The notes beneath the pieces were generated by a model. It made no database searches and was not told the DNA's origin. It saw only the letters and a list, made by a program, of their open reading frames with translations. Positions 10,289 through 45,262 of a stretch of DNA of 48,144 nucleotides are shown here, one piece after another. The translations under genes and the position numbers were made by a program. Numbering within the stretch: the first letter of the stretch is position 1; each line of letters opens with the position of its first letter. Source of the DNA: Candidatus Heimdallarchaeota archaeon. GTDB lineage: Archaea; Asgardarchaeota; Heimdallarchaeia; Heimdallarchaeales; Kariarchaeaceae. The stretch lies in the NCBI GenBank assembly GCA_015522385.1, contig WAMJ01000252.1, positions 1 through 48,144 on the forward strand, read 5' to 3'.

Positions 10289-11170
10289 TTAATCGATAAC
10301 AGACCTGTCCTTGGCCTCAAGTGCATAGGTGTCAAATACTTCTTCGATCGTCTCTTCATCCGTAGATGGATTGAGCTCAAACATGAGTTCAAGGGCATCG
10401 CCAATCGAGAATAGGAGAGACCCCAGCTTCTTCTCAACATCATAGGGAAGAATCCTCTGGAATTTTCTGGAACAACTGATACCCACAACATAGAGACGTT
10501 CGTTCTTGTGGCTGAAGATCAGTTTGATATTCTCCAAGTGGATGATATTAATGTCCAGTCCCAGATTTTTCTTTATGAATGAGTTCAGCATAATCAGCAT
10601 TCCGCTAATGATTACAGGATCGATCAATGGCTCTGCTCCGTAGTACTTGTAGTGGATGGGGAGGCCAGACAGATCACTTACATTCATCATCTCGATTTCC
10701 CATTCTTTGTCGGACTTCACATTGGGAATATCTAAATGAACAGTATTCTCTATGATTCCAAGGTTCAACTCAATGAAGGATTTAAGGTATTCCACCTTAT
10801 CCGGATATCGAAGGAACTCTGGTGACTTCTCAAATAGGTCTTCTATCATCTCCAAGAAGACCTCGATAATCCTGCTGAAACCTTGACGCTTAGACATATG
10901 AGAATCTCTGTCCACTGAAGAAAGAATGAGGACATATCCTCCCTTGACCTCAAGAAAATCTAACCAGTAATTATTGAGGTCAACCCGCGTGATCAGTGAG
11001 GAGGTAAGTTCATCAGCAAAGTTACTCAGACCGTTTACAAATGATGTAAAGAGTAAGATCATGTCCGTGTCCGATGCCCTATCAGTTTGATAGAGATACT
11101 TTAGGTTGAAATCACCGTCCAAGATAGATATTGAACAAACTCTCAATGAGAAGGTAAGAGTCAGTACCAT
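10289..11170 (-). CDS. Protein with two longin-like domains
   Basis: A 293-residue protein without signal or membrane helices. I recognise two copies of the fold pattern common in Asgard longin/roadblock-type proteins: residues about 10-110 (SISILDGDFNLKYLY, then a helix LLFTSFVNGLSNFADEL, then strands ending GGYVLILSSVDRD) and about 180-280 (LPIHYKYYG, helix ISGMLIMLNSFIKK, strands LENIKLIF and ERLYVVGISC). Longin domains bind small Ras-like GTPases or membrane-traffic complexes in eukaryotes. The gene lies directly upstream of the cluster A operon on the same strand with a gap of about 350 bp, so it could be co-regulated with it. The fold call is from pattern only; no function is known. Confidence 0.6.
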   Translation of the reverse strand: MVLTLTFSLRVCSISILDGDFNLKYLYQTDRASDTDMILLFTSFVNGLSNFADELTSSLITRVDLNNYWLDFLEVKGGYVLILSSVDRDSHMSKRQGFSRIIEVFLEMIEDLFEKSPEFLRYPDKVEYLKSFIELNLGIIENTVHLDIPNVKSDKEWEIEMMNVSDLSGLPIHYKYYGAEPLIDPVIISGMLIMLNSFIKKNLGLDINIIHLENIKLIFSHKNERLYVVGISCSRKFQRILPYDVEKKLGSLLFSIGDALELMFELNPSTDEETIEEVFDTYALEAKDRSVID

Positions 11171-11534
11171 ACTTTAATGTACTTATAGTATTCAAATTTT
11201 AGGAAAAGACAGTGGAGACCTTGATGGGTAATATTACAAAGAAATTGCGAGAAACAGATGTAAAAACATATTGTATTTTATAGCCACCCATCACACCACT
11301 ACAATCGCAATAATTGAGACTACAGACCATCTAGATGTTGTTCATTCTCACAATAGTGTCAAAAGAACACTTTGCCAGAAATAGTCAAGCAGTACATCAC
11401 TAAGTTAACCATATAGAGAATCCGAAATACTGGTTGATATGAGAAACTGAAAGTCTCCACAAGAGAGAATTGGAATGATGGAATACAAGATGGTTTGAAA
11501 ATACGACTTAATCAGTAATGTAAATTGTCTCAGA
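11171..11534. other. Intergenic region with possible promoter
   Basis: This 364-bp gap is AT-rich and has no supportable ORF. The minus strand carries two TATA-like boxes: TACTATAAGT at 11181-11190, close to the ATG at 11170, and a stronger TATAAAATACAA at 11271-11282, which would give a leader of about 80 nt for the longin-like gene. I see no terminator hairpin after the ALDH gene. Confidence 0.4.
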
Positions 11535-13922
11535 TTACACTCCGTATGGTACCCAGATGTTCTTGACCTCGGTAGATTTCCTGATGAATTCCAGCCCCAT
11601 TCCGTGGGTGGAGTTGAACCAGTCCCTGTGCTTACCGTTGGAGACCCAAGTCCGTTTCATGTTCTCGGATCCCTCGAGCTCTATCATCTTGCTGAGGTCG
11701 TCTCCTCCAAAGTACCATAACCCCTCAAGGTCATAATGCTTGGCAAGAACCTCCGTGAGCTTCATGGGATCTCCAGTTACGATATTGATCGTTCCCGCGG
11801 GTAGATCAGAGGTTTCGAGGATCTGGTAGAAGTCGGTAGCAGCAAGCGGGTACTTGAACGAGGGGATCACCACCACATTGTTACCCATGGAGATAGCAGG
11901 GATCACAGTCGAGACAAAGGCGAGCAGCGGATACTCGTCAGGTAGGACAATACCTATACTACCAACAGGTTCATTCATGGCCAAGGTCACGTTCCTCACC
12001 GGAGTGTGGTGAACTGCACCGTCATACTTGTCTGCCATAGCCGCATAGTAGTAGATCCTCTCAATTGAGAGATCGACTTCCTTCTCGGCAGACGCCATGT
12101 CCATGCCCGTCATAGAGACCAGCCGCTCGATGAACTCAGTCTTCCTCTGTACAAGGTTCTCTGCTATGTAGTAGATGACCTGCGCACGATTATGCGAGGT
12201 GGCAGATCGCCACTTCTTGGACTTGGAGGCAGCCTCAACTGCGTTCCTGATGTCCTTGCGGTTTCCCTCGCTGGCCTCACCTACTCTCTCACCCGAGGGA
12301 TTGTAGACAACATAGCTGTAGTTTCCATCAGGCCGAACCTGTTTGCCACCGATGTACATTTTGGCAGTACGGTCAATAGGGGGTAGACCGTTGTGTTTAG
12401 GTTGAGAACCTGTCCCAGCATATGTCACAAAGGGCTCCGTCCTGAACTCCTTCTCCCATTTGGGCTTGACGAAGTCCCACATACCCTCTATACCACCTTC
12501 ACGTCCGAATCCAGATTCCTTGTATCCACCGAATCCTGCCGCGGCGTCGAAGAGGTTTGTGGCATTCACCCACACAACTCCACACTCCAGCTTTGGAGCA
12601 ATGTCCAATGCGAGGTTGAGGTTCTCCGTCCACACACTCGCGGCGAGACCGTACCTGCTGTTGTTCGCCAGCTTCACTGCCTCCTCGGGAGTGCGAAAGG
12701 TCATACTGACGAGGATTGGACCGAAGATCTCCTCCTGCGCGAGGGTATCCGCGGGAGAGATGTCAGTGAACAGGGTGGGGGGATAGTAGAATCCCTCGTC
12801 GGGACAGGAGATTGCAGGTTGGAACTTGGTACCCCCTTCCTCCTCACCGATTTTCACATACCCGTCTATGGTGTTGAACTGGTTCCGGTCGACGACCGCG
12901 CCGATGTCGATGGCCTTGTCCAGAGGATTGCCGACCCTGAGCTTGCTCATCCTTACCTTCAGCATCTCGATGAAGTCCTTGGCAATGTTCTCCTGAACGA
13001 GCAGACGGGAACCTGCACAGCATACCTGACCTTGGTTGAACCAGATGGCGTCGACGAGACCCTCGATAGCGCTGTCGATGTCCGCGTCCTCAAAGACAAT
13101 GTACGGGGACTTGCCCCCGAGCTCCATTGTGGACTTCTTGCCCGAGCCTGCGATGCTCTTCCTGATGTGCTTTCCAACCTCGGTCGAGCCGGTGAAGGTG
13201 ATTTTTGCTACGTCCGGATGATTGACGATGTACTCACCCACCGTCCTCCCGCTACCGGGAACGATGTTGACGACACCCGGGGGTAATCCTGCGTTCTTGC
13301 AGATCTCGGCAAAGAGCAGTGCGGTGATGGAGGTGAGCTTCGCGGGCTTGATCACGACGGTGTTCCCCGCGGCGAGAGCTGGTGCGACCTTCCACGAGAA
13401 GATGAGGAGTGGGAAGTTCCAAGGAACGATCCCTCCGACGACACCCAGTGGTTCGTAGTCCTTGAGTTTCTCGTCCATGAGCTGTGCCCATCCAGCGTGG
13501 TGGTAGAAATGCCGAGCGACGAGGGGTATGTCTATGTCCCTTGACTCACGAATGGGCTTCCCATTATCCAGTGATTCTAGGACAGCAAATAGCCTCTGGT
13601 GCTTCTGCACCTGTCTGGCGATTGCGTAGAGGTACCTCGCCCTCCCGTGACCTCCGAGTGCATGCCATGCGGGCTGTGCCTTCTTGGCTGCTTGAATGGC
13701 GTCCTCGACGTCCTTCTCAGATGCCTCTGCAATCTCGGTAAGCTCCTTACCCGTTCCTGGTTCGATACTCTTGAAGTACTTCCCTTCCGAAGACTCTCTC
13801 CACTCATTTCCGATGAATATCTTGAGCTTCCTGTCAAATTTGTCCAGCCACTTGTCCGCATTCTCTCTGCTCTCAGGAGCTGGTCCATATTCCATTGATT
13901 CCATGATCTTTCTAACTTCCAT
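11535..13922 (-). CDS. ALDH16-type double-domain aldehyde dehydrogenase
   Basis: A 795-residue enzyme of the ALDH16 type, in which a complete aldehyde dehydrogenase is followed by a second, shortened one. The first domain (about residues 30-500) has the NAD-binding PWNFPLL, FTGSTEVG, catalytic glutamate in MELGGKSP and the catalytic cysteine pair GQVCCAGSR near residue 301. The second (about 525-795) repeats the N-terminal ALDH fold (YIGGKQV, EPVGSIGIVLP, GNNVVVIP) but has no GQxC motif, so it should be non-catalytic. A single ALDH is about 490 residues. It begins 9 bp after the deoC stop behind GAGGT, so it probably oxidises the acetaldehyde released by DeoC to acetate. Family call is firm; substrate is inferred from the operon. 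Confidence 0.88.
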   Translation of the reverse strand: MEVRKIMESMEYGPAPESRENADKWLDKFDRKLKIFIGNEWRESSEGKYFKSIEPGTGKELTEIAEASEKDVEDAIQAAKKAQPAWHALGGHGRARYLYAIARQVQKHQRLFAVLESLDNGKPIRESRDIDIPLVARHFYHHAGWAQLMDEKLKDYEPLGVVGGIVPWNFPLLIFSWKVAPALAAGNTVVIKPAKLTSITALLFAEICKNAGLPPGVVNIVPGSGRTVGEYIVNHPDVAKITFTGSTEVGKHIRKSIAGSGKKSTMELGGKSPYIVFEDADIDSAIEGLVDAIWFNQGQVCCAGSRLLVQENIAKDFIEMLKVRMSKLRVGNPLDKAIDIGAVVDRNQFNTIDGYVKIGEEEGGTKFQPAISCPDEGFYYPPTLFTDISPADTLAQEEIFGPILVSMTFRTPEEAVKLANNSRYGLAASVWTENLNLALDIAPKLECGVVWVNATNLFDAAAGFGGYKESGFGREGGIEGMWDFVKPKWEKEFRTEPFVTYAGTGSQPKHNGLPPIDRTAKMYIGGKQVRPDGNYSYVVYNPSGERVGEASEGNRKDIRNAVEAASKSKKWRSATSHNRAQVIYYIAENLVQRKTEFIERLVSMTGMDMASAEKEVDLSIERIYYYAAMADKYDGAVHHTPVRNVTLAMNEPVGSIGIVLPDEYPLLAFVSTVIPAISMGNNVVVIPSFKYPLAATDFYQILETSDLPAGTINIVTGDPMKLTEVLAKHYDLEGLWYFGGDDLSKMIELEGSENMKRTWVSNGKHRDWFNSTHGMGLEFIRKSTEVKNIWVPYGV

Positions 13923-13931
13923 ATTATTACC

Positions 13932-14912
13932 TCAGGATACTGCGTGCCTGAACGAGGCAGAGTACCTGCCCGTGACGTTGTGCTCCAACTGCCTCTCGAT
14001 ATCCCCGAGAAGGCTGCTGGCACCGAATCTGAAAAGGTGGGGAGAGAGCCACTCATCACCTAGCTCGTCCTTCAGGAGGGAGAGCCAAGCCAGTGTCTGC
14101 TTCGCAGTCTTTATACCACCTGCAGGTTTGAATCCAACCTTGAACCCCGTCATGCGGTAGTAGCTACGAATCTGCCTCATCATGACAAGACTCACGGGGA
14201 GTGTCGCATTCACAGTTTCCTTCCCCGTTGAGGTCTTGATGAAGTCTGCACCTGCCATCATGGCTACCATACTCGCCTTTGCCACGTTCTCGAAATGACC
14301 AAGCTCCCCTGTCGCGAGTATCGCCTTGAGGTGAGCCTCTCCACACGCCTCTCTGAACGCAGCTACCTCATCGTAAAGACCCTGCCAGTCTCCACCCAGC
14401 ACCTTAGCCCTGCTGATGACGATGTCAATCTCACGAGCACCATCTGCAACAGATGCCTTGATCTGCCTAATCTTCTCCTCCATCGAAATCTGACCAGCGG
14501 GAAATCCCGTGGACACCGCAGCAACAGGTATGTCAGTACCCTTGAGATCCTCAACAGCAGTCTTGACGAAGTTGTGGTAGACGCATACAGCGGCAGTGGT
14601 AATACCCATGTCCGCCACACCGAGCGCTTCGAGAAGGTCCTTCCTAACCGGCTGCCTTGCCTTCCTGCACAGCCGCCGCACCCGTTCTTCGGTGTCGTCA
14701 CCTGCGAGAGTCGTTAGGTCAATCAGTGTTATCGCCTTCAGTAACCATGCAGCTTGCCACTGCTTCTTAATCGATCTACGTTTGGGGTGGGTCTTGGCCC
14801 TCCGCTCAACCGCACTCCGGTTCACCTTTATCGCTTTTATTAAATCGAGCTCCAGAGGCATCCCAGGGTTACGGGGGATGTCAACTTGGCTCTCATGTTC
14901 AGTCTTCAGCAT
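13932..14912 (-). CDS. deoC: Deoxyribose-phosphate aldolase
   Basis: A 326-residue DeoC of the longer, E. coli-like class. It splits 2-deoxyribose 5-phosphate into glyceraldehyde 3-phosphate and acetaldehyde. The Schiff-base lysine is in ADFIKTSTGKE near residue 225, the helper aspartate in REIDIVIS and the second lysine in FKPAGGIKT. The first 55 residues (with RRAKTHPKRR) are a basic extension before the TIM barrel. The frame is open to an ATG at 14972, but a TATA box at 14952-14961 lies inside that extension, so I prefer the ATG at 14912. It is transcribed together with the ALDH16 gene, making a short nucleoside-sugar salvage operon. Confidence 0.92.
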   Translation of the reverse strand: MLKTEHESQVDIPRNPGMPLELDLIKAIKVNRSAVERRAKTHPKRRSIKKQWQAAWLLKAITLIDLTTLAGDDTEERVRRLCRKARQPVRKDLLEALGVADMGITTAAVCVYHNFVKTAVEDLKGTDIPVAAVSTGFPAGQISMEEKIRQIKASVADGAREIDIVISRAKVLGGDWQGLYDEVAAFREACGEAHLKAILATGELGHFENVAKASMVAMMAGADFIKTSTGKETVNATLPVSLVMMRQIRSYYRMTGFKVGFKPAGGIKTAKQTLAWLSLLKDELGDEWLSPHLFRFGASSLLGDIERQLEHNVTGRYSASFRHAVS

Positions 14913-14951
14913 GTTTGTCTGCCTACCAATCCATAATTCGTCAAGAAAGAA

Positions 14952-14961
14952 ATTTAATAAA
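14952..14961. promoter_or_regulatory. Shared divergent TATA element between deoC and the MBL-fold gene
   Basis: The near-symmetrical ATTTAATAAA reads as a TATA box on both strands (TTTATTAAAT on minus, TTTAATAAA on plus). Minus-strand RNA would start near 14930 for deoC, and plus-strand RNA near 14983 for the gene at 15021. One box could serve both genes, or two overlapping pre-initiation sites could compete. Confidence 0.45.
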
Positions 14962-15020
14962 CATACTGACACTACACCTGCGAGGGAGAAGACTCAAAAA
15001 CACAAGGCCGAAACTAATGT

Positions 15021-19613: not shown

Positions 19614-19720
19614 GGCCCAGTGGTGTAGTTCGGTCCATCATGGCGGGCTTTCAATGTTCCTATAGAAATTATAGGAACAGAAGTTCCCCGCCGACCCGGG
19701 TTCAAATCCCGGCTGGGTCA
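19614..19720 (+). tRNA. tRNA-Glu (TTC) with a 32-nt intron
   Basis: Acceptor stem GGCCCAG pairs with CTGGGTC (one G-U), discriminator A at 19720, T arm CCGGG-TTCAAAT-CCCGG, anticodon stem GCGGG/CCCGC. The anticodon TTC is at 19650-19652. An intron occupies 19654-19685, between positions 37 and 38, giving a mature loop CTTTCAC. The precursor folds as a canonical bulge-helix-bulge: anticodon stem, a 4-bp helix CTTT/GAAG, three-base bulges CAA and TTC, then a perfect 10-bp inner helix TGTTCCTATA/TATAGGAACA with a five-base loop. CCA is not encoded. This is direct evidence for an archaeal splicing endonuclease. Confidence 0.95.
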
Positions 19721-19833: not shown

Positions 19834-22071
19834 ATGGTCACTTATTTGCCAGCTAAGGTCGGAAATAGAAAAGCGAGGAGAACACGATCTAGAAATGATT
19901 TAAATGCTATAAGAGGTAGTAGTGGTATGGAACGAGTGTCCAATGTAGAGGAGGCAATAGAGAGCCGGGCGAAACAGATCGCTACGGTTGTTCTAGCATT
20001 TGTCTTCACAACAATAGAGAGCATAGCTCCTGACCTTACGGTTATCCCGGGGATAGAGATCTCTGGGCAGAACTTGGGGATTTTCATACCTGCATCAGGT
20101 GCGATTATCTTCGGGAAAGGAGTTGGTGCTGGGGCGGCTGGCCTTGGGTCGTTAGCGAACGAGTTCAAGAATGTCCTTACAGGAGAGCCGATAAATGGAT
20201 TATATAGTATTGGTGTGCTCCTCAACGCTGCGTCTTTGTCGATTGGGACTTTGACTGCAGGGCTCCTCGGGACTCCCGAGGGCGAGGACTTTCTGCCAAA
20301 GAACCTGAAGCAGACATTTTTCGGTCTGCAAGAATGGGCGAGTGTTGGTCGGAAGACTCTTGGCTCTGTGATCGGGGTAGGCATGACGGGTAATTTCCTT
20401 TACGCTTATGGATCGCAGATCCAAGAGGGGGCATCAATTGCAGGGGGTACGGTATTCTTCCTTCAGCTATTCATCCGTGACACCATAGTGCTGGTGACTA
20501 CACTTCCTGTGATGTTTATCTCGTATGATATTTTTCAGATGCTTAAGCAGAGGAAGGCGGAGATTCTGGAGACGTTGCTCAAGCAGGTCAATTGGAAGAT
20601 TACTGACTCTGAGCCTGGTCTCGAGGTTCTATCGGTTAAATTGCCTGAGAGCTCGATGATTCAGGGGAAGTGGGTACCTGTGCTCTTGGTGTTCAGGAGT
20701 TTGCGGGATGAGCCCACAGCGTATAATATCGAGGGGGTGGCGACGACGAAGATCACCCCTATGAAGGACAAGACACCTCCGCTTAAGAAGGGGGAGAAGT
20801 GGATACAGTCTTTCTTCGTCCTTCCGTCTAAGCAGAAGGTTGTCAACGCCAGGTTCAGGATACTCCCTGTGATGAAGCCTAAGTTCAGACACATCGAGGC
20901 GGAGGATACGATTGTAGAGTTGGAGGCTAAGACACGTGACCCGCAGGGCTTTATGAACACGCTGTTGGGTTTCAGTGGTCTGAACTTCGGTGTGGCCGGA
21001 GCAGGAGTGGTTTGGGACAAGGTCATTGAGCTAGTCAACAATCCAGATCAGATCATCAACTCTATTACAGGGGGTGCACAGTTGGTCTTCTCTACGATCA
21101 TGATCGAGGTCGGGCTCTTCATCCCCGTGGTTCTTCTCATGTACAGGAATGCCACGAAAGTTACCGATGAGCACAAGATGAAGCTGAGCTTTTCCAACGA
21201 CATCGAGGATCAGAAGATCCAAGAGCTACCCGAGAAGCTGATGAACCGGCTGATCGAGAGGTATGCCGGAAAGGCAAAATTTGTGATCTACACGGCCATG
21301 GCGCTTGGGACTCTCGGGGGTATAGGTTATCTTGGCTTTCAGGGATTCAAGGTATTCACAGAACCGGGTTATGCGATCGCGAATGCAGACCTCATAGCCC
21401 CTGGTATCGCGATCATCATTGGCTCATGGATAGTCGGGATCAAGGGTGACGACGCCCTGAGGAAGCTGAATCTTCTCAAAGAGGAGGTGACGCCGGGGAC
21501 AAACCATTTCGTCGTGGACTTCAAACCACTTGCCAAGTTCCAGCAGAATGTCCCCAACCCAATCATCCTCACGGTGTACAATCCGTCGTCGACTCCTGGA
21601 ATTCGGGTGACCTTTGAGGGGCAGGACAACATCTCACCACCTATGCTGGAGCTCCACATCAAGCCCAGAGAAAAGGCTCAGGCGAAGATTGTTGTGACCC
21701 CTACAGGGAAGGACGGTCGGAAGATCCTCGCACTGGCTTCACCCCTATTTGACGAGAACGAGGAGTACCTAGATGCGCAGGAGACTGAGCCTTATGGTAA
21801 GCAGGAACTCGAATTCATCGTTCAGGGCGAGAGCAGTTTAGGAGTTACGAAGGACCAAGAGAATACAATCAAGAAGCTGGGGGCTGGAGGCGTACTCATC
21901 GGAAGTGCGATCACCATCGTGAACCAATTTCTGAATCTTGGAGACCTTAGCACTATCCTCACTGAGCAGGGACCGCTTCTTGCTGGGGCGCAGACACCGT
22001 TTGTCTATACATATTTCAAGCTCCAGAATAAGTTCGAGAAGATCAAGCAGGACAGGAGGTTGAGGTCATGA
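19834..22071 (+). CDS. Large multipass membrane protein with two beta-rich domains
   Basis: A 745-residue protein not matched to a known family. By hydrophobicity there are about five membrane segments between residues 45 and 235, a hydrophilic Ig-like domain (about 245-365), four more segments (about 370-545), a second Ig-like domain (about 560-685, with NPIILTVYNPSS) and a final membrane segment near 700. So the layout is a repeated membrane block plus beta domain. The N-terminal block is rich in glycine and alanine, like transporters, but I see no transporter motif. It starts the operon; the stop overlaps the next ATG by 4 bp (ATGA). It probably forms a membrane complex with the two Cache proteins that follow. 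Confidence 0.6.
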   Translation: MVTYLPAKVGNRKARRTRSRNDLNAIRGSSGMERVSNVEEAIESRAKQIATVVLAFVFTTIESIAPDLTVIPGIEISGQNLGIFIPASGAIIFGKGVGAGAAGLGSLANEFKNVLTGEPINGLYSIGVLLNAASLSIGTLTAGLLGTPEGEDFLPKNLKQTFFGLQEWASVGRKTLGSVIGVGMTGNFLYAYGSQIQEGASIAGGTVFFLQLFIRDTIVLVTTLPVMFISYDIFQMLKQRKAEILETLLKQVNWKITDSEPGLEVLSVKLPESSMIQGKWVPVLLVFRSLRDEPTAYNIEGVATTKITPMKDKTPPLKKGEKWIQSFFVLPSKQKVVNARFRILPVMKPKFRHIEAEDTIVELEAKTRDPQGFMNTLLGFSGLNFGVAGAGVVWDKVIELVNNPDQIINSITGGAQLVFSTIMIEVGLFIPVVLLMYRNATKVTDEHKMKLSFSNDIEDQKIQELPEKLMNRLIERYAGKAKFVIYTAMALGTLGGIGYLGFQGFKVFTEPGYAIANADLIAPGIAIIIGSWIVGIKGDDALRKLNLLKEEVTPGTNHFVVDFKPLAKFQQNVPNPIILTVYNPSSTPGIRVTFEGQDNISPPMLELHIKPREKAQAKIVVTPTGKDGRKILALASPLFDENEEYLDAQETEPYGKQELEFIVQGESSLGVTKDQENTIKKLGAGGVLIGSAITIVNQFLNLGDLSTILTEQGPLLAGAQTPFVYTYFKLQNKFEKIKQDRRLRS

Positions 22072-23915
22072 GGAAGAGAATACTCCTCACCTCGTTCATT
22101 CTCACCGGTCTGATTGTTGGTGGACTCGGGTACTACTCGGTGATCTTTCCGCAGATTGCGGTCAATTCCACAATCATCGATGAAGCGGAGAGCGAGGTCT
22201 GGAGGTTGAACAACTATGCTGCTCTGGAGACGACGTCACAGTTGAATAGACTTGAGGGAGTCCTGACATCCTCGGTTAATGCTCTGAGGTCGGTCTATGA
22301 CAACGAGGAGTACCTCGGGGACCCAGTCACCTATTACAACAACGTGAACATCTCAGGAGGCCCTCCGGGACTCTATCTAGATACGGAGAGAAATGAGTTT
22401 ATTTCATACAATGCCTCTGCGTACAAGTTTGCACCGTGGGCATTTAACGAGTCATACCAAGAGACGTACCTCACACAGCTCGAGACGGATGACCCACTCC
22501 TCCACGTCAGTGATGACGTAAGAGATACCGTGACAATCGGTGCGAGTCTTGATCCTCTGTGGAAAGACCTCTTTGCATCCAATCCGGACGTGAAGCAGGT
22601 CACCATGGGATTTGCTAATGGTGTGGTTACTACCTATCCATTCAGGATCATCGACAAAGAATACGACCACACCCAGACCTCGTGGTATCCTGCGGCCATA
22701 TCTGGTGTTAAAGACGTTGTCGTCGTCCTCGACAGGTCTGGTTCCATGGAAGGTGGAAAGCTAGAGGCATTGAAGAACTCCACGAAGGAGATCATACAGG
22801 ATCTTGGAGGTTCGGACAGGTTCAGCATCGTTGCCTTCTCGGATACCGTGAAGACGTTTAGGCCAAACCTTGTCACCATAAATGACGAGATCATTGCACA
22901 GAGTAACGAGTTCTTGGACACCATCATCCCCGGAGGAACCACAGATATCCTCGCAGGGATGAACACGGCTCTGGAAATCCTCGCTACCTACGGGAATCCG
23001 AAACACCAGAAAGTTGTCGTTTTTGTCACCGATGGCGAAGCGTCTACTGGTATTACAGACAAGGATTTGATCGTCGAGGAGATCGGTAGAGCTAACGGTT
23101 TAGCAAATGCGGAGTTGATGATGTACGCTATCGGTCAAGACGCGGACTACGACCTGTTGACTAGCATTGCAAATGTCACGAACGGTTACACCGCGTGGTA
23201 CAACTCCACGGAGAATTTCACCAAGAACGTCCCGCTGTACCACAGTGTCCTTGCAGAGGTCAAACCCAATGAGAACCCCGTGTGGAGCACCCCCTATTTC
23301 GGGAAGGTCAGCAAGGGACAGCTCATGACCGTCTCACAGCCCGTGTACTATAGGGGAGAGTTCAAGGGAGTCATGCAGATCGAACTCTCACTTAACTTCC
23401 TTGTCAACAATGTGAAGCAGGCGGAGAATTTCCCCTCGGAGTACAGGTTCGTAATCGACTCTGGTGGGATCACCGTGATGCACCCTCAGACATTGTCAAT
23501 TCCAATAGATGACTGGACGGAGGAGAACAGTAGACTTGACATCGAGACCCTCGAAGAAGGAGGTGAGAAGTTCAGCAGCATTCTCTCAGAGGCGAAGTTC
23601 GGTATAAGCACTTATACCACCGTCACAAACGATAGGGGAGAGGATCTAACCTATGCACTTGCTCCTCTCGGAGCCACCAGTCTCATCCTCGCAACAGTGG
23701 TGTCATTCAATGACCTCCTACCACCCGATATAGATACCAAGGTGGAGTTTATCTCTATTTCCCCAATTGTGCTAGCTCCTGCTCTCGGAGCCAGTATCCT
23801 CACGATTGCAATTGTCACGGTGGTTGCACCCTTTGTATTAGAGGAGGAGAAAAAGGTGCAGAAGAAAAAGGAAGAGGAGAAGAAAGAAGAGCAGGAACAG
23901 GAGGATAAGTCATGA
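22068..23915 (+). CDS. VWA domain inserted in a dCache ectodomain, alpha2-delta-like
   Basis: A 615-residue membrane protein: N-terminal helix (residues 5-25), a long helix, a dCache-like region starting about 30-210 and ending in TSWYPAA, a VWA domain at about 214-395, then continuation of the Cache domain from NPVWSTPY (403) to about 550, a second membrane helix (565-590) and a lysine/glutamate-rich tail. The VWA MIDAS is complete: DRSGSM at 222-227, T292 and D322. VWA within the W-Y...P-Y loop of a Cache domain is the organisation known in the animal voltage-gated calcium channel alpha2-delta subunit. The function here is unknown; a divalent-cation-dependent ligand or partner binding role outside the cell is inferred. 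Confidence 0.75.
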   Translation: MRKRILLTSFILTGLIVGGLGYYSVIFPQIAVNSTIIDEAESEVWRLNNYAALETTSQLNRLEGVLTSSVNALRSVYDNEEYLGDPVTYYNNVNISGGPPGLYLDTERNEFISYNASAYKFAPWAFNESYQETYLTQLETDDPLLHVSDDVRDTVTIGASLDPLWKDLFASNPDVKQVTMGFANGVVTTYPFRIIDKEYDHTQTSWYPAAISGVKDVVVVLDRSGSMEGGKLEALKNSTKEIIQDLGGSDRFSIVAFSDTVKTFRPNLVTINDEIIAQSNEFLDTIIPGGTTDILAGMNTALEILATYGNPKHQKVVVFVTDGEASTGITDKDLIVEEIGRANGLANAELMMYAIGQDADYDLLTSIANVTNGYTAWYNSTENFTKNVPLYHSVLAEVKPNENPVWSTPYFGKVSKGQLMTVSQPVYYRGEFKGVMQIELSLNFLVNNVKQAENFPSEYRFVIDSGGITVMHPQTLSIPIDDWTEENSRLDIETLEEGGEKFSSILSEAKFGISTYTTVTNDRGEDLTYALAPLGATSLILATVVSFNDLLPPDIDTKVEFISISPIVLAPALGASILTIAIVTVVAPFVLEEEKKVQKKKEEEKKEEQEQEDKS

Positions 23916-25807
23916 AGTTACCAAAGATCAAGATAAAGAAATTTAGGTTGTCCAAGAGATCAGAGAAGTTCAGTATGATCCTCTCAATTTCTCTCATCCC
24001 AGCTCTCATCGGGATGGGCTTCCTCGGAGTCACACTCTTCTACGTGTCAGAGACCAGCAAGATTGAACTTAACAGTGACTATCTAACAACTATCAGTCAG
24101 AACCAAGGTCTCTTGCTCAACGCATCCAAGGAGAGTTTTGAGCAGAACTTCCTACAGTTTGCTCAGGCATCAGTGACTATTGAACGTTATCTAGAGGATC
24201 TCTGGACAGGCAATATCACCACTTCGCTACCATCGTACTATATCAATCAGACCATCGACGGAAAGGATCTTGATCTCGAATTCTCAGAGAAGCATAACAT
24301 GGAGGTCGACTTCAAACGATCCTCCTATTTCGTCTACACGCAACCTGCCTATGGAAAATGGACGTCAGATGTCAACGAGACCATAAAGAGGAGCTCTAAC
24401 CTTGACTTGGTTCTGCCCTCAATTTACTCATCCTACCCACAGATCCTCTGGATGAATATGGTCTTCAACAACGGTGTTGTTCGAGGTTATCCATACGTGG
24501 AAAGGAATGTCACGGGATACGATCCACTTGACTACGGATGGTATATCGAGGAGTTCTTCAGGGGGAACGCATCCGATGGGCTCTACTTCTCCGAACCAGA
24601 GGTAGACGAATTGACCGGCAGATTAGTGATCCAGGTGGCCCAAAATGTATTTGTTGGAAACCAGTCACTGGGTATTTTAAATTTCGCCATCACCTTTGAT
24701 GCCCTCGATTCACTCGTTGTGAACACTGCTCGTAATTCACCCCGTTCCTCCGTGTACCTCTACACCTCGGGGCAGAAACTCAGGTCACATTCGAGATTGG
24801 ATGTTCCAAAATTCGGATGGAACGAGACGTACTTGAACACCTCAGTAGCAGACCTTGAGTTGGTCTCAGAGAACTACAGCGCAATTCTCAACAAGGTGAT
24901 ATTCTATAATTACGTCAATGAGTACATGGTGGTCAACGGAACTACCTACATGGCCAGCCTATCATCTCTTGACCATGCAGGGCTATACCTTGCGATAATA
25001 AGAGAGATCGACACCTCACCGGTATATGCAGAGTTCCCATTATTGGATCTCTTCTTCATACCCTCCCTTGTATTCCTCACTATCCTCGGAGCGATAGCAT
25101 TCGTCCAGAGGCAATGGGGAATTTTCAAAGGAAAGACCCTCGATGATCTCCTCAAGCCACTCGAAGAGATTATGGACAAAGCGGATCAGATCTCGGATAT
25201 GGTGGCTGGAGAAGGAGAAGCACCTGACCTCCAGCAAGTGATTTCCGACGCCACTGAGCAGGTTTCTGAGAAGGTCGCAGACCTCGTGAAAGAGAAAGGT
25301 GCAGAGCTTCGTGAAACGATGCAGGAGAAGGGTGAGGAGTTAATTGAAAAGATCGAGCAGAAGATCGAGACTGGGGAGGGGATCACGCAGGACGACATTC
25401 TTGACCTCGTGGAGGAGAAGATCGAAGAGAAGCTCTCACTGGAAAACAAGATCGAGAGCCTCATCTCCGATGAGAGTGAGAAGGGATCTGGCACGAGCTT
25501 CCTCGACAAACTAGCGGGTATCGGCCTGGACGTGGAGAAACTCAAGAGCGGGGATCTCAGTGTTGTCAATGTCATCGACAATCCTGCCACTAAGCTCCTA
25601 ACGATTGCCTCCACAACTGACTCGATAAGTGTGAAGGAACTCGCGTCCACCCTCGGTGTTGAACAGATGGAGATCAACTCGCTCCTGAAGTTCATGCCTG
25701 CAGAGACTGGTATCACACTGGATGTTGACACTGTCAAGTTCAACAAGAACATGGTACAGGAGAACCTCCCCCAGATTCTGAACATTGCAAAAGAGACCTT
25801 TATCTAA
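23912..25807 (+). CDS. dCache sensor with coiled coil and helix-turn-helix-like C-terminus
   Basis: A 631-residue protein overlapping the previous gene by 4 bp. A basic N-terminal 20 residues precede a membrane helix, then a dCache-like ectodomain (about 45-365, with YGWYIEEFF and VAQNVF), a second membrane helix (about 370-395), a charged coiled coil of about 120 residues (410-530, many Glu-Lys heptads) and a C-terminal domain (about 550-631) with TDSISVKELASTLGVEQMEINSLL, which reads as a winged helix. It has no HAMP, kinase or methyl-accepting domain. It may bring a membrane sensor directly to a cytoplasmic partner. It has no VWA, unlike its operon neighbour. Confidence 0.65.
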   Translation: MKLPKIKIKKFRLSKRSEKFSMILSISLIPALIGMGFLGVTLFYVSETSKIELNSDYLTTISQNQGLLLNASKESFEQNFLQFAQASVTIERYLEDLWTGNITTSLPSYYINQTIDGKDLDLEFSEKHNMEVDFKRSSYFVYTQPAYGKWTSDVNETIKRSSNLDLVLPSIYSSYPQILWMNMVFNNGVVRGYPYVERNVTGYDPLDYGWYIEEFFRGNASDGLYFSEPEVDELTGRLVIQVAQNVFVGNQSLGILNFAITFDALDSLVVNTARNSPRSSVYLYTSGQKLRSHSRLDVPKFGWNETYLNTSVADLELVSENYSAILNKVIFYNYVNEYMVVNGTTYMASLSSLDHAGLYLAIIREIDTSPVYAEFPLLDLFFIPSLVFLTILGAIAFVQRQWGIFKGKTLDDLLKPLEEIMDKADQISDMVAGEGEAPDLQQVISDATEQVSEKVADLVKEKGAELRETMQEKGEELIEKIEQKIETGEGITQDDILDLVEEKIEEKLSLENKIESLISDESEKGSGTSFLDKLAGIGLDVEKLKSGDLSVVNVIDNPATKLLTIASTTDSISVKELASTLGVEQMEINSLLKFMPAETGITLDVDTVKFNKNMVQENLPQILNIAKETFI

Positions 25808-27811: not shown

Positions 27812-28249
27812 ATGTTTTCGGATTATTATACATTCTTGGAGGTCGATCAACAGGTTCTTACCTTTAATGTAGGTGAGGAGCGGGTCGCTATTGAGCTGAA
27901 ATACGTAAAGAAAGTGGATCTTGCAGAGGATCTGATGCCACTTCCCCGTTCTCCACCAGGTGTTGAGGGTGTGATCCAGATCGATGAGGAACCATATCCA
28001 CTCCTCAATCTCGAAAGGTTGCTGGATCCTACAATCCCGTTCAAGCCACCTCAAATCGTTGTCCTTGTGAACACGGTCGACAACCTCTACGCAGTCCAGC
28101 TTTCCGAGCTCCCGAATGCATTGGAAAAAGTAGAGACAGAGTCAGGCAGTACTTCTCTCCCAGAGGAGTGGGTGAAGGGCTATGTTCAGTCGAATGACAG
28201 TAGTATTCCCCTTCTTGACATCAAAGCAATTTGGGAAGGTTTGGAGTAA
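27812..28249 (+). CDS. cheW: CheW adaptor (cluster B)
   Basis: A 145-residue single CheW domain starting cluster B: TFNVGEERVAIELKYVKKV, then SPPGVEGVIQIDEEPYPLLNLERLL and a final PLLDIKAIW. These match the standard CheW strands more closely than the cluster A version and there is no acidic tail. The stop TAA overlaps the next ATG by one base (TAATG), so translation is coupled to the tetra-CheW gene. It is expected to join a receptor to the cluster B CheA. Confidence 0.88.
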   Translation: MFSDYYTFLEVDQQVLTFNVGEERVAIELKYVKKVDLAEDLMPLPRSPPGVEGVIQIDEEPYPLLNLERLLDPTIPFKPPQIVVLVNTVDNLYAVQLSELPNALEKVETESGSTSLPEEWVKGYVQSNDSSIPLLDIKAIWEGLE

Positions 28250-29964
28250 TGGTTGAGTACACGGTTCTTCGGTACAGAGAGATCAAGGTTCTATTGGAAC
28301 TGGACAATTCTGTGGAGTTCCATCCGTACCGCGAGGCGAGTGTGCAACTCAATCACTACCCAGACTATATCGAGGGGGTACTCAGCCCAGCAGGGAACCG
28401 AGTGTCATTACTTGTGGATCTAGGGAGAATGCTCACTCTGCACCCCGAGGAGGGGGTGCCGGAGATTATTCTAGAAATTGCCAAGCGGGAGAACCTTTCG
28501 TTGAAAGTTCCACTTCCAGAGGTAATAGATATAGATATACCTCATAAAGATCTGTTCAGCGGTCATTTACCCTCCGCTGAATATTGCGATGTAGATGGTG
28601 TGACTTACCTAGTCATCCAGCTCAAGAATCTCTACAAGACCATCCGGAGGGACCTCAAAGAAGTTCATGTTCAACTCCCTGAGCTTGACCATACCGGCCT
28701 ACTGGACGAGATCTCCACCTTCAGATCAGCACCCTCTATAGAGATGAATACTGGGGGAACTGCACAAGAAGCAGTTCTGATGACCCTCGGTGACCTCCGA
28801 ATTTTGATAGATCGGGATTTTGTCCGTGAGATATTGCAGAGCATACCGACTTCCATCCCTCACCCATCTCGTAAGGAGTGGATTAGAGGATTGTACAAAT
28901 TTGAAGACGACTCCATACTGGCAATAGACAGCGTACATTATTTTGGTGTCACCGGACAAACCCTCATGGATGTGGTGATCGAGAAGGGGGATTCAATCTT
29001 CATGATGGATGCCGAGACCATTGAGAACGTTGACATGGCAGATTTCGAGCAAGTTCTACTAGGGGACTATACTGGAGATTACCTTTTCGACAACATGTAC
29101 TATGATAAAGAGGGGATAGTTTACCATCTGAACGTAGACTCGGTTATCTCAGACATCATCAGCTTGGAGAGGAAGATGTTCACCCTTGACTCTATACGCG
29201 AGTTCTTCAGCAGAGAACACCGAGAAAGAGACTTTAAGCTGGATGAGTTGCAGAGTTCGGAGGAGATGAACTACATGAACCTCATAGTTGACGACGTGAA
29301 CTGCTTCGTGAACAATATGACAATTGAACAGATCGGCAAGCCAGAGGACTATCCAGACCTACCAAAGATCACATTGGGAGAGGTGTTGGAGAGAGACTCC
29401 AATCCACAATATGCAGTTGTGACCGATGTGGGAACGGGACATATCGCACTCCTGTGCGACGAGATCACCACCACCCCTAGTTTAAGGACTCACGTTGAGG
29501 AGAAGGTCTTCGCCAAGATGAATCCGGTACTGAATGAACTGGGATTTAATGAAATGGTAGAGGACGGAAAGCATGTCGGAATTAACTTTGATCCTGTTCA
29601 GATGTCGAAAGGTCTTGGAACTAAGGCTGGTAAACTGAATAAGGAGGGGATTGAGATAAAGATAGGGGAGTCAAACTACGGGATCTGGTTCACGGATTAC
29701 GTCACCCTACTGAGGGTGGAAATTAGTAAAAACACATACCGGTATTTCTCGACAGAGGGTGTAGAGGAATTTCTGACAAAGGCGGATTCCCCGAAGAACC
29801 CTTTTGACCTTAGCGGGAGAATGGTGTTTGTCAAGTACAAGGGAGAGGAGTATGCGATTCCAAGGGGATCAACTCTTGTAAATGTGCAGAGAGATCTAAT
29901 GGATGGGGATGGATTTGTTCTTGATGGAGAACATATCAAAATAGAGGAGATAGGTGAACTATAA
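28249..29964 (+). CDS. Adaptor with four CheW-like domains (cluster B)
   Basis: A 571-residue soluble protein with the same layout as the cluster A tetra-CheW. I read CheW-like units at about residues 1-135 (YIEGVLSPAGNRVSLLVDL), 165-310 (WIRGLYKFEDDSILAIDS), 340-460 (EEMNYMNLIVDDVNCFV, degraded) and 470-571 (IEIKIGESNYGIWF to MVFVKYKGEEYAIPRG). Only the first keeps the usual G-V-x-x-x-x-G-x-x-x-x-x-V-D-L core, so the others probably act as spacers or alternative docking sites. The start is ATG 28249 rather than an upstream in-frame GTG/ATG at 28231 because of the TAATG coupling. The ends abut cheY with no gap. Confidence 0.72.
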   Translation: MVEYTVLRYREIKVLLELDNSVEFHPYREASVQLNHYPDYIEGVLSPAGNRVSLLVDLGRMLTLHPEEGVPEIILEIAKRENLSLKVPLPEVIDIDIPHKDLFSGHLPSAEYCDVDGVTYLVIQLKNLYKTIRRDLKEVHVQLPELDHTGLLDEISTFRSAPSIEMNTGGTAQEAVLMTLGDLRILIDRDFVREILQSIPTSIPHPSRKEWIRGLYKFEDDSILAIDSVHYFGVTGQTLMDVVIEKGDSIFMMDAETIENVDMADFEQVLLGDYTGDYLFDNMYYDKEGIVYHLNVDSVISDIISLERKMFTLDSIREFFSREHRERDFKLDELQSSEEMNYMNLIVDDVNCFVNNMTIEQIGKPEDYPDLPKITLGEVLERDSNPQYAVVTDVGTGHIALLCDEITTTPSLRTHVEEKVFAKMNPVLNELGFNEMVEDGKHVGINFDPVQMSKGLGTKAGKLNKEGIEIKIGESNYGIWFTDYVTLLRVEISKNTYRYFSTEGVEEFLTKADSPKNPFDLSGRMVFVKYKGEEYAIPRGSTLVNVQRDLMDGDGFVLDGEHIKIEEIGEL

Positions 29965-30330
29965 ATGGCAAAATTGATGATTGTTGACGACTCAAATTTC
30001 ATGAGAGCTACCCTGAGGAAGGCCCTGGAGGCAGCTGGGCATGAGATTGTGGCAGAAGCAGATAATGGCGAAGATGCGGTAGCATTCTATGCTAAACACA
30101 GACCAGATTGCACTACCATGGACATTGTGATGCCTAATGGGAACGGGATCGAGGCCCTGACGAAGATAATTGACTTCGATCCGGATGCACGTGTGGTCAT
30201 CATTACTGCACTCGGACATGAACCGATGATACGAAAGGCATTGGCCGCTGGTGCGATGAGCTTCGTGATCAAGCCCGCGGAGGAGGATGAGATCCTTGAG
30301 GCCGTGGATAGCGCACTGATGGGGATGTGA
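29965..30330 (+). CDS. cheY: CheY response regulator (cluster B)
   Basis: A 121-residue receiver domain with D8/D9, phosphoacceptor D53 (TMDIVMPNGNG), T81 (IITAL) and K103 (IKP). No output domain. It starts on the base after the tetra-CheW stop, and precedes CheA as in cluster A. It is the only CheY of cluster B, so it should serve as the output or feedback regulator of that CheA. Confidence 0.93.
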   Translation: MAKLMIVDDSNFMRATLRKALEAAGHEIVAEADNGEDAVAFYAKHRPDCTTMDIVMPNGNGIEALTKIIDFDPDARVVIITALGHEPMIRKALAAGAMSFVIKPAEEDEILEAVDSALMGM

Positions 30331-32069
30331 GAGAGATGCAGGACTTTTCATGGGAACCATGGATAGAGGACATGCGTAGGATCGAGGATTCGCTCAATGA
30401 CCTCCTAACAATATATGAGGAAGATCCAAGCAACAAGGAGATCAGCCAGAAACTGAAAATTGAGCTTCATTCCATGAAAGGTCTGATGGATGCTGTGGGA
30501 TTTAACACCGCCACTGAGACCGTCGTGGAGATCGAAGAAATCGTACACTCTCGTGGAGATGAGGTAGATGAAGACCTGATGGAGATTATCTCGGAGACGA
30601 AGAATAAGATAAATTTCCTTCTAAGGATACTCGAAGCAGGAGAGAACCTTTCCGTCTCAGAGATGGACAAGAAGATAGGATTCGAATCCCTTCTTCTCAA
30701 GGCAGGGAGGAAATTGACACTCGAGATCGAGATTGATGAAAAGCGAAGTATGATGTCCTCAAGGGCACTGAGTATCATCAACAGCATCAAAAAAATTGCA
30801 GTTATCGAGTCGACGAATCCGTCAAATGATGACCTAGTCTCCGATGCTAAGTTTGACATACTAAAGGTGGAAATTACTACACACGAGGGTAAGGACGAAG
30901 TCAAAGAACAGGTAGAGAATATTCAGAAAGTGAAAAGTGTCACAGTCTATGCTTCGGAGGATGCAGAAACCACTACGGGAGAGGAGGAACTATATCTCAG
31001 AGTCAAGCTCAAAGATGTTCGAGAAATAGGTGATGACCTCACAATTCTTACTGGTCAACTTAGCCAGTTGGAAACAGACCTCAGCCCAAAGGGGATGGAC
31101 GTCTTGAATTCAATTTACAACAGCATTGAGAACATCCAAGACGACCTGAGGAGATTGAGGAGTGTCCCACTTATCCAGATCTTCTCGGGACTTCCGGGAA
31201 TGGTCGGCAGGATCGCCAAGCAGGAGAAGAAACTGGTGGAGTTTTCCATGCAGGGGAGGTTTATCCGCGTAGACAAACTCATTGCCAACAATATCCTCGA
31301 GCCCATCACACAAATCATAAGAAACGCGGTCAGTCATGGGATCGAGCCGAGAAACGATCGACGTAAATTAAAGAAGAACCCGATAGGGCTAATCACTCTG
31401 ACAGCCTCTGAGATCAGGGATAAAGTCATCATTAAGATCACGGATGATGGAGCTGGTATAGATGTCAATCATCTGAAGAAGAGAGCGAAAGAGCTGAAGA
31501 TATCAGTCCCCAAGGACAACCCCTTTGACATTATTTTCGAGAACAAGTTCACCACGGGTGGGGAAGACGCCTCAATTTCAGGACGAGGGATTGGTCTATA
31601 CACCGCGAAGAAGAGAATCCAGATGATCGGAGGGTCGATATCCGTGAGATCCGAACCAGGCAAGGGCACGACGTTCACACTGGAGATCCCTAACACGGAT
31701 TCACTTTTGAAGTCGGTGATTGTAAGGAGTGGAGACATGAAATTTGCGGTCTCGACTTACGACATCGAGCATCTTGAGGTCATGACCGAGGTGGGTGATT
31801 TCTACCATTTCATAGACCGTGATATCCCCGTGGTCAGGATCTCAGATATTTTGAGTACTAAGGAGGACAAACTGCCCCAGCAGATCCTTCTTGTCTGTAG
31901 AGGTAGCTCGTCATACTACGCACTAGTGGTCGACGAAGTTCTTGATGAGAGACTCGCCAGTATTAGACCTCTGAATCCATTATTGAGTAACCTAAAGCTA
32001 TTCGATGGGACATTATTCGACGAGAACCAAGAACCGATCTTGGTTCTAAATACGTCGGCACTGGCATAG
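30327..32069 (+). CDS. cheA: CheA histidine kinase (cluster B)
   Basis: A 580-residue CheA. The Hpt histidine is H48 (ELHSMKGL). A middle region with LKVEITTHEG resembles the CheY-docking domain. The HATPase domain has a near-standard N box IIRNAVSHGIE, G1 DDGAGID, an F-box region FENKFTTGG and G2 GRGIGL. The CheW-like C-terminus ends in EPILVLNTSAL. Compared with cluster A the ATP-site motifs are less altered. The GTG at 30327 overlaps the cheY stop; the ATG at 30336 is an equally good start. Cluster B CheA should be a separate signalling hub from cluster A. Confidence 0.93.
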   Translation: MREMQDFSWEPWIEDMRRIEDSLNDLLTIYEEDPSNKEISQKLKIELHSMKGLMDAVGFNTATETVVEIEEIVHSRGDEVDEDLMEIISETKNKINFLLRILEAGENLSVSEMDKKIGFESLLLKAGRKLTLEIEIDEKRSMMSSRALSIINSIKKIAVIESTNPSNDDLVSDAKFDILKVEITTHEGKDEVKEQVENIQKVKSVTVYASEDAETTTGEEELYLRVKLKDVREIGDDLTILTGQLSQLETDLSPKGMDVLNSIYNSIENIQDDLRRLRSVPLIQIFSGLPGMVGRIAKQEKKLVEFSMQGRFIRVDKLIANNILEPITQIIRNAVSHGIEPRNDRRKLKKNPIGLITLTASEIRDKVIIKITDDGAGIDVNHLKKRAKELKISVPKDNPFDIIFENKFTTGGEDASISGRGIGLYTAKKRIQMIGGSISVRSEPGKGTTFTLEIPNTDSLLKSVIVRSGDMKFAVSTYDIEHLEVMTEVGDFYHFIDRDIPVVRISDILSTKEDKLPQQILLVCRGSSSYYALVVDEVLDERLASIRPLNPLLSNLKLFDGTLFDENQEPILVLNTSALA

Positions 32070-32080
32070 GAGGACAGAAG

Positions 32081-32692
32081 ATGACATTCACAAAGAAAGA
32101 TATTGAAGCATTCAAAGAACTTGGAAACGTGGGGGCAGGTCATTCTGCTATCGCTCTGACCAAGTTTCTCAAGAGAGAGGTAGACATGAGTGTTCCATAC
32201 GTGAGGGCAGGATCTATCAAAGATATCCTCGATAACTCAGGTATTGAACCAGATGAGATGGTAGGATACGAGATCATAGATATCAACAAACCAGTGAAGT
32301 ACAGGTTGACGGTGATTATGAAGGTAGACGTCATCCTGAACCTCATCAAGCTCATGTCTGAGACAACCAAGGACATAATTGAGTCTGTTGATGATCTGAC
32401 ACAGATGCAACGGTCGCTCATCCAAGAAATTGGATCCACCATCATGCTCAGGTACATTGCTGCGATTAACAAGATGATGAAGGTCGACTCGGTACCTCAT
32501 GATTCGCCCACGCTTAAACTTAGAACATTCAAGGAGACTGTCAACGAGATTGGATTCAAAGATATGAAAGGAGAAACCGTCTTCGTACAGCTTGATCTCT
32601 TCACTGAGCAGAAAAAATTTGAAGCCGTCTTGTTTATTCAACCCAGTCCAGAGTCCTTAGATAGATATAGAGAGGCATTTCACCTTAGTTGA
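32081..32692 (+). CDS. cheC: CheC-type phosphatase (cluster B)
   Basis: A 203-residue CheC, 11 bp after cheA behind GGAGGACAGAAG. The first site keeps the family spacing (AFKELGN, 22 residues, P) with E and N intact, but D/S at the head is glutamate. The second site (SLIQEIGS, 22 residues, P) has serine instead of asparagine, the same change as in the cluster A paralogue. It should dephosphorylate the cluster B CheY. No CheD gene lies nearby, so the usual CheC-CheD interaction may be absent. Confidence 0.88.
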   Translation: MTFTKKDIEAFKELGNVGAGHSAIALTKFLKREVDMSVPYVRAGSIKDILDNSGIEPDEMVGYEIIDINKPVKYRLTVIMKVDVILNLIKLMSETTKDIIESVDDLTQMQRSLIQEIGSTIMLRYIAAINKMMKVDSVPHDSPTLKLRTFKETVNEIGFKDMKGETVFVQLDLFTEQKKFEAVLFIQPSPESLDRYREAFHLS

Positions 32693-33687: not shown

Positions 33688-33747
33688 TTCGATGTAAGTT
33701 AATTCTCTTTGTAGCTATATAAGATTTCTCTTCTCTGCTGTAGTTGC

Positions 33748-44533: not shown

Positions 44534-45262
44534 ATGGAGCAAGGACGAGACTTCGAGGACAGGGTGGAGATCAGATCTGTCCACCACGCTGACAAGCCGC
44601 TGATCGACTTCCCAATCAATCTTGTGGATATCGAGAAACTACACCTCCACGAAATGGTGATCGAGAAGGAGTACGAAGGTCTCGTCGACCAATTGAGAAA
44701 AGATGGGTACCTCAGAACACCCATACTCATCACACAGGATCACATCATTCTCGACGGACACCACCGGTTCTCCGCCCTGAATAGGCTTGGAGTGAAGAAG
44801 ATACCAGCGATCATCCTTGACTACGACGACGACAACCTCGTTAAGGTAGACACATGGCACCCCATAGTCAGGAAGCCAGTAGATGAAGTCGCGGAGGAAC
44901 TGCAGAAGAGGGGGCTGACTGTAGAACCCTTAGAAGGAGATTACAAAAGCATGCTGGACAGGAGAGAGGTCGCCGCGGTGGTGGGAAATAAGAAGAAAAA
45001 ATTCAAAGTACTGGGAGACAGGGAGCAGGTCTTCACAGCGGTCCGTGAACTCTGGCTAGACGGGATCAGGTACGCCGACATCCCAGAGCTGGCATTCTCC
45101 ATCACCTCCGAGGAGATAACCGCCATCGCCTCATGGCCGTACACCAAAGAGGAGATAAAGCGGGTAGCCAAGAGCGATCGAGTATTCCTCCCAAAGACCA
45201 CTCGCCACTTCATGGACTTCCAGTTCCCAGACTACAGAGTGGAAATCAAGGACCTCTATTAG
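44534..45262 (+). CDS. serK: SerK-type free serine kinase (ParB/sulfiredoxin fold)
   Basis: A 242-residue protein resembling archaeal SerK, which phosphorylates free L-serine using ADP as donor, feeding cysteine synthesis via O-phosphoserine. The residues matching the known catalytic pair are E40 in [10 protein letters not shown] and D74 in LDGHHR, with the substrate segment RTPILI between them. ParB-family proteins share the fold, but the short length and absence of a helix-turn-helix favour SerK. A TATATTTAAG about 30 nt before the ATG supports this start. It stands alone. Confidence 0.82.

Follow-up and report, generated by a model that had tools for sequence, protein, structure and literature searches.

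In a 48,144-nucleotide stretch of DNA from Candidatus Heimdallarchaeota archaeon (contig WAMJ01000252.1, assembly GCA_015522385.1), hereafter the window, three consecutive genes lie on the forward strand, designated g1, g2 and g3; the second encodes a protein whose single dCache_1 sensor domain, flanked by a transmembrane (TM) helix at each end, is interrupted by a VWA domain with a metal ion-dependent adhesion site (MIDAS), at the position where a VWA is inserted in the animal proteins alpha2delta-1 and CACHD1. On sequence grounds we regard this architecture, the insertion point, the conservation of the MIDAS, the pairing of g2 with g3 and the homology of their dCache domains as established. 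Beyond this, we consider it rather probable that g2 is an outward-facing sensor, most likely one component of a two-protein receptor with g3, and that g1 is a likely polytopic partner in the membrane. In such a receptor a divalent metal would mediate the hold of the g2 VWA on its partner, either a protein or a surface, the binding would bring about a change in the g2 dCache, and the cytoplasmic region of g3 would carry the signal inside.

Asgard archaea are often held to be the nearest relatives of eukaryotes, and a conserved VWA-in-dCache protein accompanied by a second dCache gene in this group is a candidate prokaryotic form of the animal architecture, the origin of which can be put to the test; should the insertion prove to be convergent, the arrival of the same domain at the same site twice would be informative about the dCache fold. 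According to PMC9901441, alpha2delta and CACHD1 are the only animal proteins in which dCache has been identified. Our literature search returned no report of a VWA-dCache protein in Asgard archaea, a prior mention in Gumerov et al. (2022), on amino-acid-sensing dCache domains, being possible.

The g2 protein and its partner genes

The g2 gene (22068..23915, +) has an ATG start and encodes 615 amino acids (aa), its assignment as a membrane-anchored VWA-in-dCache_1 protein being drawn from Pfam, phmmer and profile searches. Reading from the N terminus, the protein comprises a TM anchor (residues 5-23; 22080..22136, +), a first part of the dCache (residues 24-213; 22137..22706, +) ending in YDHTQTSWYPAAISG, the VWA with its MIDAS (residues 214-400; 22707..23267, +; recognized by Pfam VWA and by a VWA profile), the remaining part of the dCache (residues 401-560; 23268..23747, +), which begins with NENPVWSTPY, and a second TM anchor (about residues 568-591; 23769..23840, +). 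Both anchors are called from hydropathy, which agrees with the initial annotation in placing one at either terminus; the intervening stretch of 544 residues is poor in lysine and arginine, as expected of a chain outside the membrane. Pfam detects VWA at 216-376 (1e-17) and dCache_1 at 335-542 (6.6e-13), both exceeding the cut-off, and the dCache_1 match covers the VWA as well as the C-terminal half, a consequence of the domain being interrupted by the VWA. The VWA starts directly past TSWYPAAISG and stops directly ahead of NPVWSTPY, so that the alignment confirms the earlier placement between WYPAA and NPVWSTPY. The proposal of an intact MIDAS (D222, S224, S226, T292, D322) also holds: D222, S224, S226 and D322 are identical in all ten family members, and the fifth position, 292, is T in six of them and S in four.

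Two other Pfam families belong to the alpha2delta/CACHD1 proteins. VWA_N, a model of the N-terminal flank, is not detected in the g2 protein of the window at E 0.1; its matches elsewhere are weak, in three of ten g2 members (best 6.5e-5) and five of ten g3 members (best 9.1e-6), and exceed the cut-off in none of seven genomes. VGCC_alpha2, which covers a region after the first dCache and is named in PMC4822843, was matched by none of the g2 or g3 members.

The g3 gene (23912..25807, +; 631 aa) encodes a dCache without VWA between hydrophobic segments, followed by a predicted cytoplasmic part in which we read a coiled coil and a winged-helix-like end. It directly follows and overlaps g2 in all ten loci, i.e. 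the window and nine further loci from relatives (L108-L116): the overlap is 4 bases in seven (window, L108, L110, L111, L113, L115, L116), 8 bases in L109 and 79 bases in L112 and L114, as judged from first-start calls of open reading frames (ORFs). The g2 profile and the g3 profile each match the other's window member (1.1e-29 and 7.4e-32), and by this comparison the two dCaches are homologous. When the g3 family profile is run against the PDB, CACHD1 ranks first for the whole chain (7.2e-16), a rank due to the scores of its two copies adding up; copy for copy, CACHD1 scores 5.7e-6 (second dCache) and 1.3e-4, compared with 3.1e-13 and 5.9e-13 for two chemoreceptors. These per-copy scores led us to withdraw the identification of g3 with the second dCache of CACHD1 and weigh against a specific animal link; judging by its sequence, g3 is an ordinary dCache standing where the second CACHD1 dCache would sit, and not demonstrably its counterpart.

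The g1 gene (19834..22071, +; 745 aa) encodes a polytopic membrane protein with about 10 TM segments and two large soluble insertions, and overlaps g2 by 4 bases in the window. It stands directly upstream and co-oriented in five of ten loci (window, L109, L110, L113, L115) and upstream but divergent in L108, and so adjoins g2 in six of ten; L114 and L116, where g2 runs to the contig end, give no information on it. A single member out of seven has a weak match to the ECF riboflavin S-component (2.3e-4).

Further genes adjoin the trio in some of these loci. In L109 and L110 a protein of 718-726 aa with Big_7 and Exo_endo_phos domains is encoded next to g1 on its upstream side; the gene directly 3' of g3 in L112 (12261-13742) encodes a protein of leucine-rich repeats that weakly matches Prok-RING_2, and L114 has an ORF of comparable length (489 aa) in that place.

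Likeness to animal proteins and distribution of the family

In alpha2delta-1 (CACNA2D1; PDB 5GJV and others) a MIDAS-bearing VWA likewise splits dCache_1 directly past the WY motif, a splitting that is described in PMC9901441. Both dCaches of alpha2delta-1 lie in one chain, whereas in the Heimdall locus the second belongs to the overlapping next gene, and alpha2delta-1 keeps the amino-acid/gabapentin arginine (YDVRRRPWY), which the window g2 lacks. No channel partner was identified at the Heimdall locus, where no CaV search was made, and the g1 family has no significant match in the PDB (best E 0.49). CACHD1 (VWFA and cache domain-containing protein 1; PDB 8S7C, 9EQ6) carries its VWA in the same place within the first dCache, but has DHGAS for the MIDAS DxSxS that is intact in g2; according to PMC7615972, both of its dCaches and an FZD-binding domain form one chain with a C-terminal TM segment, whereas g2 and g3 are separate genes and g2 has two anchors. 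Chemoreceptors of the PctA type (PDB 5LTX) share with g2 the TM-dCache-TM topology and a match to the C-terminal flank, and provide the nearest single-copy matches of g3; they carry, however, a signalling domain of methyl-accepting chemotaxis proteins (MCPs), absent from g2, whose sensor instead holds a VWA. ITIH/VIT-type proteins, which have an N-terminal VIT domain, resemble g2 in another respect, since ITIH1 and ITIH4, along with bacterial VWA proteins, possess the VWA closest to its own; no Cache flanks are reported in these matches, and at E 0.1 Pfam detects no VIT in the g2 of the window. The alpha2delta family has a signal peptide and a C-terminal anchor only, and the TM-like segments seen by hydropathy at both ends of g2 would speak against anchoring of that kind unless the first is cleaved.

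Searches of the PDB agree with this picture. With g2 as a single phmmer query, CACHD1 comes first (7.2e-20, query 158-474), followed by the VWA-only matches ITIH1/ITIH4 (7.4e-12) and then by alpha2delta-1 (2.7e-10, query 159-544). The family profile gives one continuous alignment to alpha2delta-1 (best domain 1.2e-36, whole chain 9.3e-39, query 152-550) and another to CACHD1 (best domain 4e-34, whole chain 1.9e-41, query 156-477), and ITIH4, matched through the VWA only (1.7e-31), and PctA (6.9e-15) both fall below the animal pair. The whole profile scores 129 bits against alpha2delta-1 and 121 against CACHD1, compared with 59 and 39 bits for a VWA-only profile; from this difference, the flanks add about 70-80 bits. 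An empty site is also discernible in a paralogue: the uninterrupted dCache of the g3 protein of G042 has 11 residues (WYLTAL to PYVDAS) where g2 holds the VWA, in an alignment for which we chose cheap gap extension. Taken as a statement about layout, the alpha2-delta interpretation in the initial annotation is therefore supported at the sequence level by the shared insertion point, by an unbroken profile alignment far above that of the VWA alone, and by the empty site.

In the reverse direction, a two-sequence profile of CACHD1 and alpha2delta finds matches at 1e-8 in 39 of the 227 Asgard genomes, its best match being the g2 gene of G052 (1.2e-24, query 4-390), and it recovers g2 genes in seven of the nine genomes that bear them (not G035 or G037). 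The same search found 0/299 Pseudomonadota genomes at 1e-8, an empty answer that, without a known positive, shows little.

Relatives of g2 with cache flanks occur in nine of the 227 Asgard genomes searched with the A1 profile (G001, G002, G003, G035, G040, G042, G048, G052 and G037), the g2 of G052 carrying one in-frame TGA and that of G037 being a fragment at a contig end; the remaining listed matches of this profile at E <= 1e-10 are VWA or cache parts alone. Seven aligned relatives keep the entire architecture at 27-29% identity to the window protein. Two nearer ones (57-58%) come from a protein search, which returned these two true relatives besides g2 itself, together with five VWA-type proteins spanning <=44% of the query. 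The ten-sequence family profile (A4) leaves out L111, with its in-frame TGA, and L116, the contig-end fragment; the split profiles (A8-A10) use eight of its ten rows, P0002 and P0003 being left out, and A6 omits P0010 (99% to the window). In L111, which derives from G052, the g2 relative (9518-11305, -) is split by the TGA into two open pieces, reflecting either a broken gene or a sequencing error.

Outside the Asgards, 1,188 genomes sampled from four phyla were searched with the A4 profile, no more than 3 to 5 candidates being scored in each, and none had a match at E <= 1e-24 that took in both flanks and VWA. At that threshold, matches of VWA type only (query 212-413) occur in 6/398 Pseudomonadota, 0/300 Thermoproteota, 20/247 Bacteroidota and 14/243 genomes of a fourth phylum; the names are taken from the anchors L062 (Pseudoalteromonas), L054 (Nitrososphaeria), L053 (Flavobacteriales) and L013, the last, 'Euryarchaeota RBG_19FT_COMBO_69_17', belonging to what we take to be Thermoplasmatota. 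The initial annotation had named a much better match to bacterial VWA-Cache proteins as evidence against its interpretation, and none appeared in this sample, which leaves out many bacterial phyla, among them Planctomycetota, Myxococcota, Chloroflexota and Cyanobacteriota. DNA-pattern scans of genome contigs and of viruses gave no close relatives, tblastn gave no match on phages, and on plasmids it gave 27 records, of which the 20 listed match only query 174-431 around the VWA.

Evidence against the receptor and rival explanations

Several observations weigh against the proposed receptor or against the animal likeness of its sensor. The arginine of the amino-acid-binding motif of dCache_1 sensors, described in PMC9901441 and located two residues ahead of WY, is replaced by T in the window g2 (YDHTQTSWY), and is present in two of ten g2 and three of ten g3 members; with so few members retaining it, amino-acid sensing would not be general among these proteins, and the ligand of the window g2 is probably not an amino acid. 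The g1 gene was not found in L112, of which 9 kb are seen upstream, or in L111, of which 1.8 kb are seen, and its two large soluble parts are predicted from the positive-inside rule to be cytoplasmic, which makes it unlikely that g2 holds a large extracellular domain of g1 in the manner of alpha2delta. Structure prediction, suggested earlier as a check, yielded a confident VWA region and no confidently folded flanks: AlphaFold2 reached a predicted local distance difference test (pLDDT) score of 34 with a 3-sequence alignment, the flanks having no usable fold, and 44 with eight sequences (five VWA-only proteins added), the VWA region alone being confident. Foldseek with the latter model returned ITIH chains first and then alpha2delta and CACHD1 chains, with root-mean-square deviations of up to 27 A; these matches do not count here as evidence for the insertion.

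The flanks taken by themselves are likewise less telling than the whole profile. The whole-chain E values of the N-flank profile are 2.5e-9 for CACHD1, 3.1e-5 for alpha2delta-1, 0.025 or weaker for chemoreceptors and 0.05 for PctA, the CACHD1 value being inflated because its two dCache copies are summed; for single copies the values are 9.3e-5 for alpha2delta-1, 0.0043 for the second CACHD1 dCache and 0.098 for the first, which is no better than chemoreceptors. For the C-flank profile they are 3.8e-14 for CACHD1 (best stretch 466-537), 1.1e-11 for PctA and 4.9e-6 for alpha2delta-1. The animal proteins thus appear modestly nearer to the flanks than chemoreceptors do, by scores that are themselves modest. 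Moreover, the reverse search also matches 32 Asgard genomes without g2, through cache-only or VWA-only stretches and with E values down to 1.5e-16. This strongest match in a genome without g2 lies in a dCache-TPR-VWA receptor. An Asgard receptor of this kind, about 900 aa long (L148:793-3450, with L150 alike), is composed of a dCache, TPR repeats and a C-terminal VWA, as seen by Pfam in L148 and by eye in L150; between its domains we read a HAMP-like stretch.

With regard to origin, we give a nearly even chance to a convergent insertion, whereby a prokaryotic VWA of ITIH/VIT type entered a permissive dCache loop in the Heimdall lineage independently of the animal ancestor. This is in line with the behaviour of the VWA profile, which lies nearest to ITIH1 and ITIH4 (9.5e-32 and 8.2e-30) as against alpha2delta-1 (3.6e-15) and CACHD1 (4.7e-9), and with a 62-row VWA tree (without the frame-search rows for L108-L110 and L112-L115, which duplicate rows of A10) in which the g2 VWAs form one clade (97/93) within a group with bacterial VWAs (89/89), alpha2delta-1 and CACHD1 being long unresolved branches outside; forcing g2 and both animal VWAs together is nevertheless not rejected (p 0.356). 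In a 40-row dCache-core tree, forcing g2 with both animal first dCaches (D1) is marginally rejected (p 0.0456), which speaks against a specific animal link yet carries little weight, because this tree fails to put CACHD1 with alpha2delta; the two animal D1 forced together are not rejected either (p 0.354). The greater nearness of g3, copy for copy, to bacterial chemoreceptors and the dCache-TPR-VWA receptor, an example of another way in which Asgards combine these domains, are further points in favour of convergence, whereas the agreement of the insertion point to within a few residues and the bits added by the flanks argue the opposite.

Descent of g2, with or without g3, and of the animal VWA-dCache-dCache chain from one ancestral system, acquired via an archaeal host or by transfer and with the second dCache fused on, we regard as unlikely, and common ancestry as an unproven but testable candidate. 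The shared insertion site, the order of a VWA-bearing dCache followed by a dCache that is kept across g2 and g3, the position of CACHD1 D1 inside the g2 group of the dCache tree (86/90) and the fact that the animal profile finds its best Asgard match in g2 would all fit such a history. Similarity in the VWA gives it no support, the D1 of alpha2delta-1 is placed among other Asgard dCache receptors (97/98), and CACHD1 D2 stands beside the g2 group and not with g3 (90/70), a grouping with g3 being nonetheless not rejected when forced (p 0.275); g3 itself has no special likeness to CACHD1 D2, g2 occurs in only nine of the 227 Asgard genomes, and Upadhyay et al. (2016; PMC4822843) ascribe the Cache domains of archaea and eukaryotes to horizontal transfer. 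A still more specific and somewhat more doubtful version would make the g2-g3 pair a living form of the CACHD1/alpha2delta precursor, the insertion of the VWA into the first dCache going back to an Asgard ancestor, with the second dCache in the neighbouring gene, and eukaryotes later joining both; if true, eukaryotes would have reused an archaeal sensor as a channel and Wnt-receptor partner. The trees, for which no protist sequences were included, do not discriminate between common descent and convergence, and the old origin that the initial annotation had raised is neither shown nor excluded, with a VWA nearer to ITIH and bacterial proteins, flanks modestly nearer to the animal ones and a dCache tree that splits CACHD1 from alpha2delta-1.

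As regards function, g2 and g3 could instead be accessory receptors feeding the CheA/CheW arrays encoded on both sides of them in the window, which we judge improbable. Two che clusters do flank the trio (2184-9908 and 27812-35992), dCache_1 is a typical sensor of chemoreceptors, to whose dCaches g3 is near, and the cytoplasmic part of g3 has a coiled-coil look; on the other hand, neither g2 nor g3 has a Pfam match to MCPsignal, and in the nine other loci, of 5.9-20 kb each, no ORF other than those of the trio has a match at 1e-5 among the proteins of the window, whether che or not. The likeness to animal proteins might also suggest a recent gene transfer from an animal or protist into the archaeon, or contamination of the assembly; the identity of 27-29% between the window protein and its Heimdall relatives, the occurrence in nine genomes, the conserved overlapping gene pair or trio and the two TM anchors, as found in prokaryotic dCache receptors, leave either of these very improbable and strongly disfavoured.

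Host and other features of the window

By its sequence the window groups with Heimdallarchaeota and Kariarchaeota, which corroborates the apparent archaeal source noted in the initial annotation. A SerK-like gene (44534..45262, +), used for host placement, has as its four best matches metagenome-assembled genomes of these two groups, at 37-42% identity, and a tRNA match of 107 bases upstream of g1 (19614..19720, +), an archaeal marker, was found by Rfam and missed by ARAGORN; the length of the latter is as for an intron-bearing tRNA, and it probably contains an intron.

At 11535-14972 (-), an aldehyde dehydrogenase of 795 aa adjoins a DeoC-type aldolase; the dehydrogenase is about 60% identical over its full length to Caballeronia plasmid proteins and, from this likeness, is a probable acquisition from bacteria. 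Because the dehydrogenase is bacterial-like, host placement did not draw on this pair. The chemosensory cluster on one side of the trio (2184-9908, -) encodes CheC, CheA, CheY, CheW and an MCP, and the one on the opposite side (27812-35992) encodes CheW, CheY, CheA, CheC, CheB and an MCP, the two CheA proteins having a mutual identity of only 27%. A second VWA-containing locus (37756-42992, -) consists of AAA_5, VWA and HEAT-repeat genes in a row, and a HepT-like gene is paired with a nucleotidyltransferase gene (686-1724, -) in a typical toxin-antitoxin arrangement.

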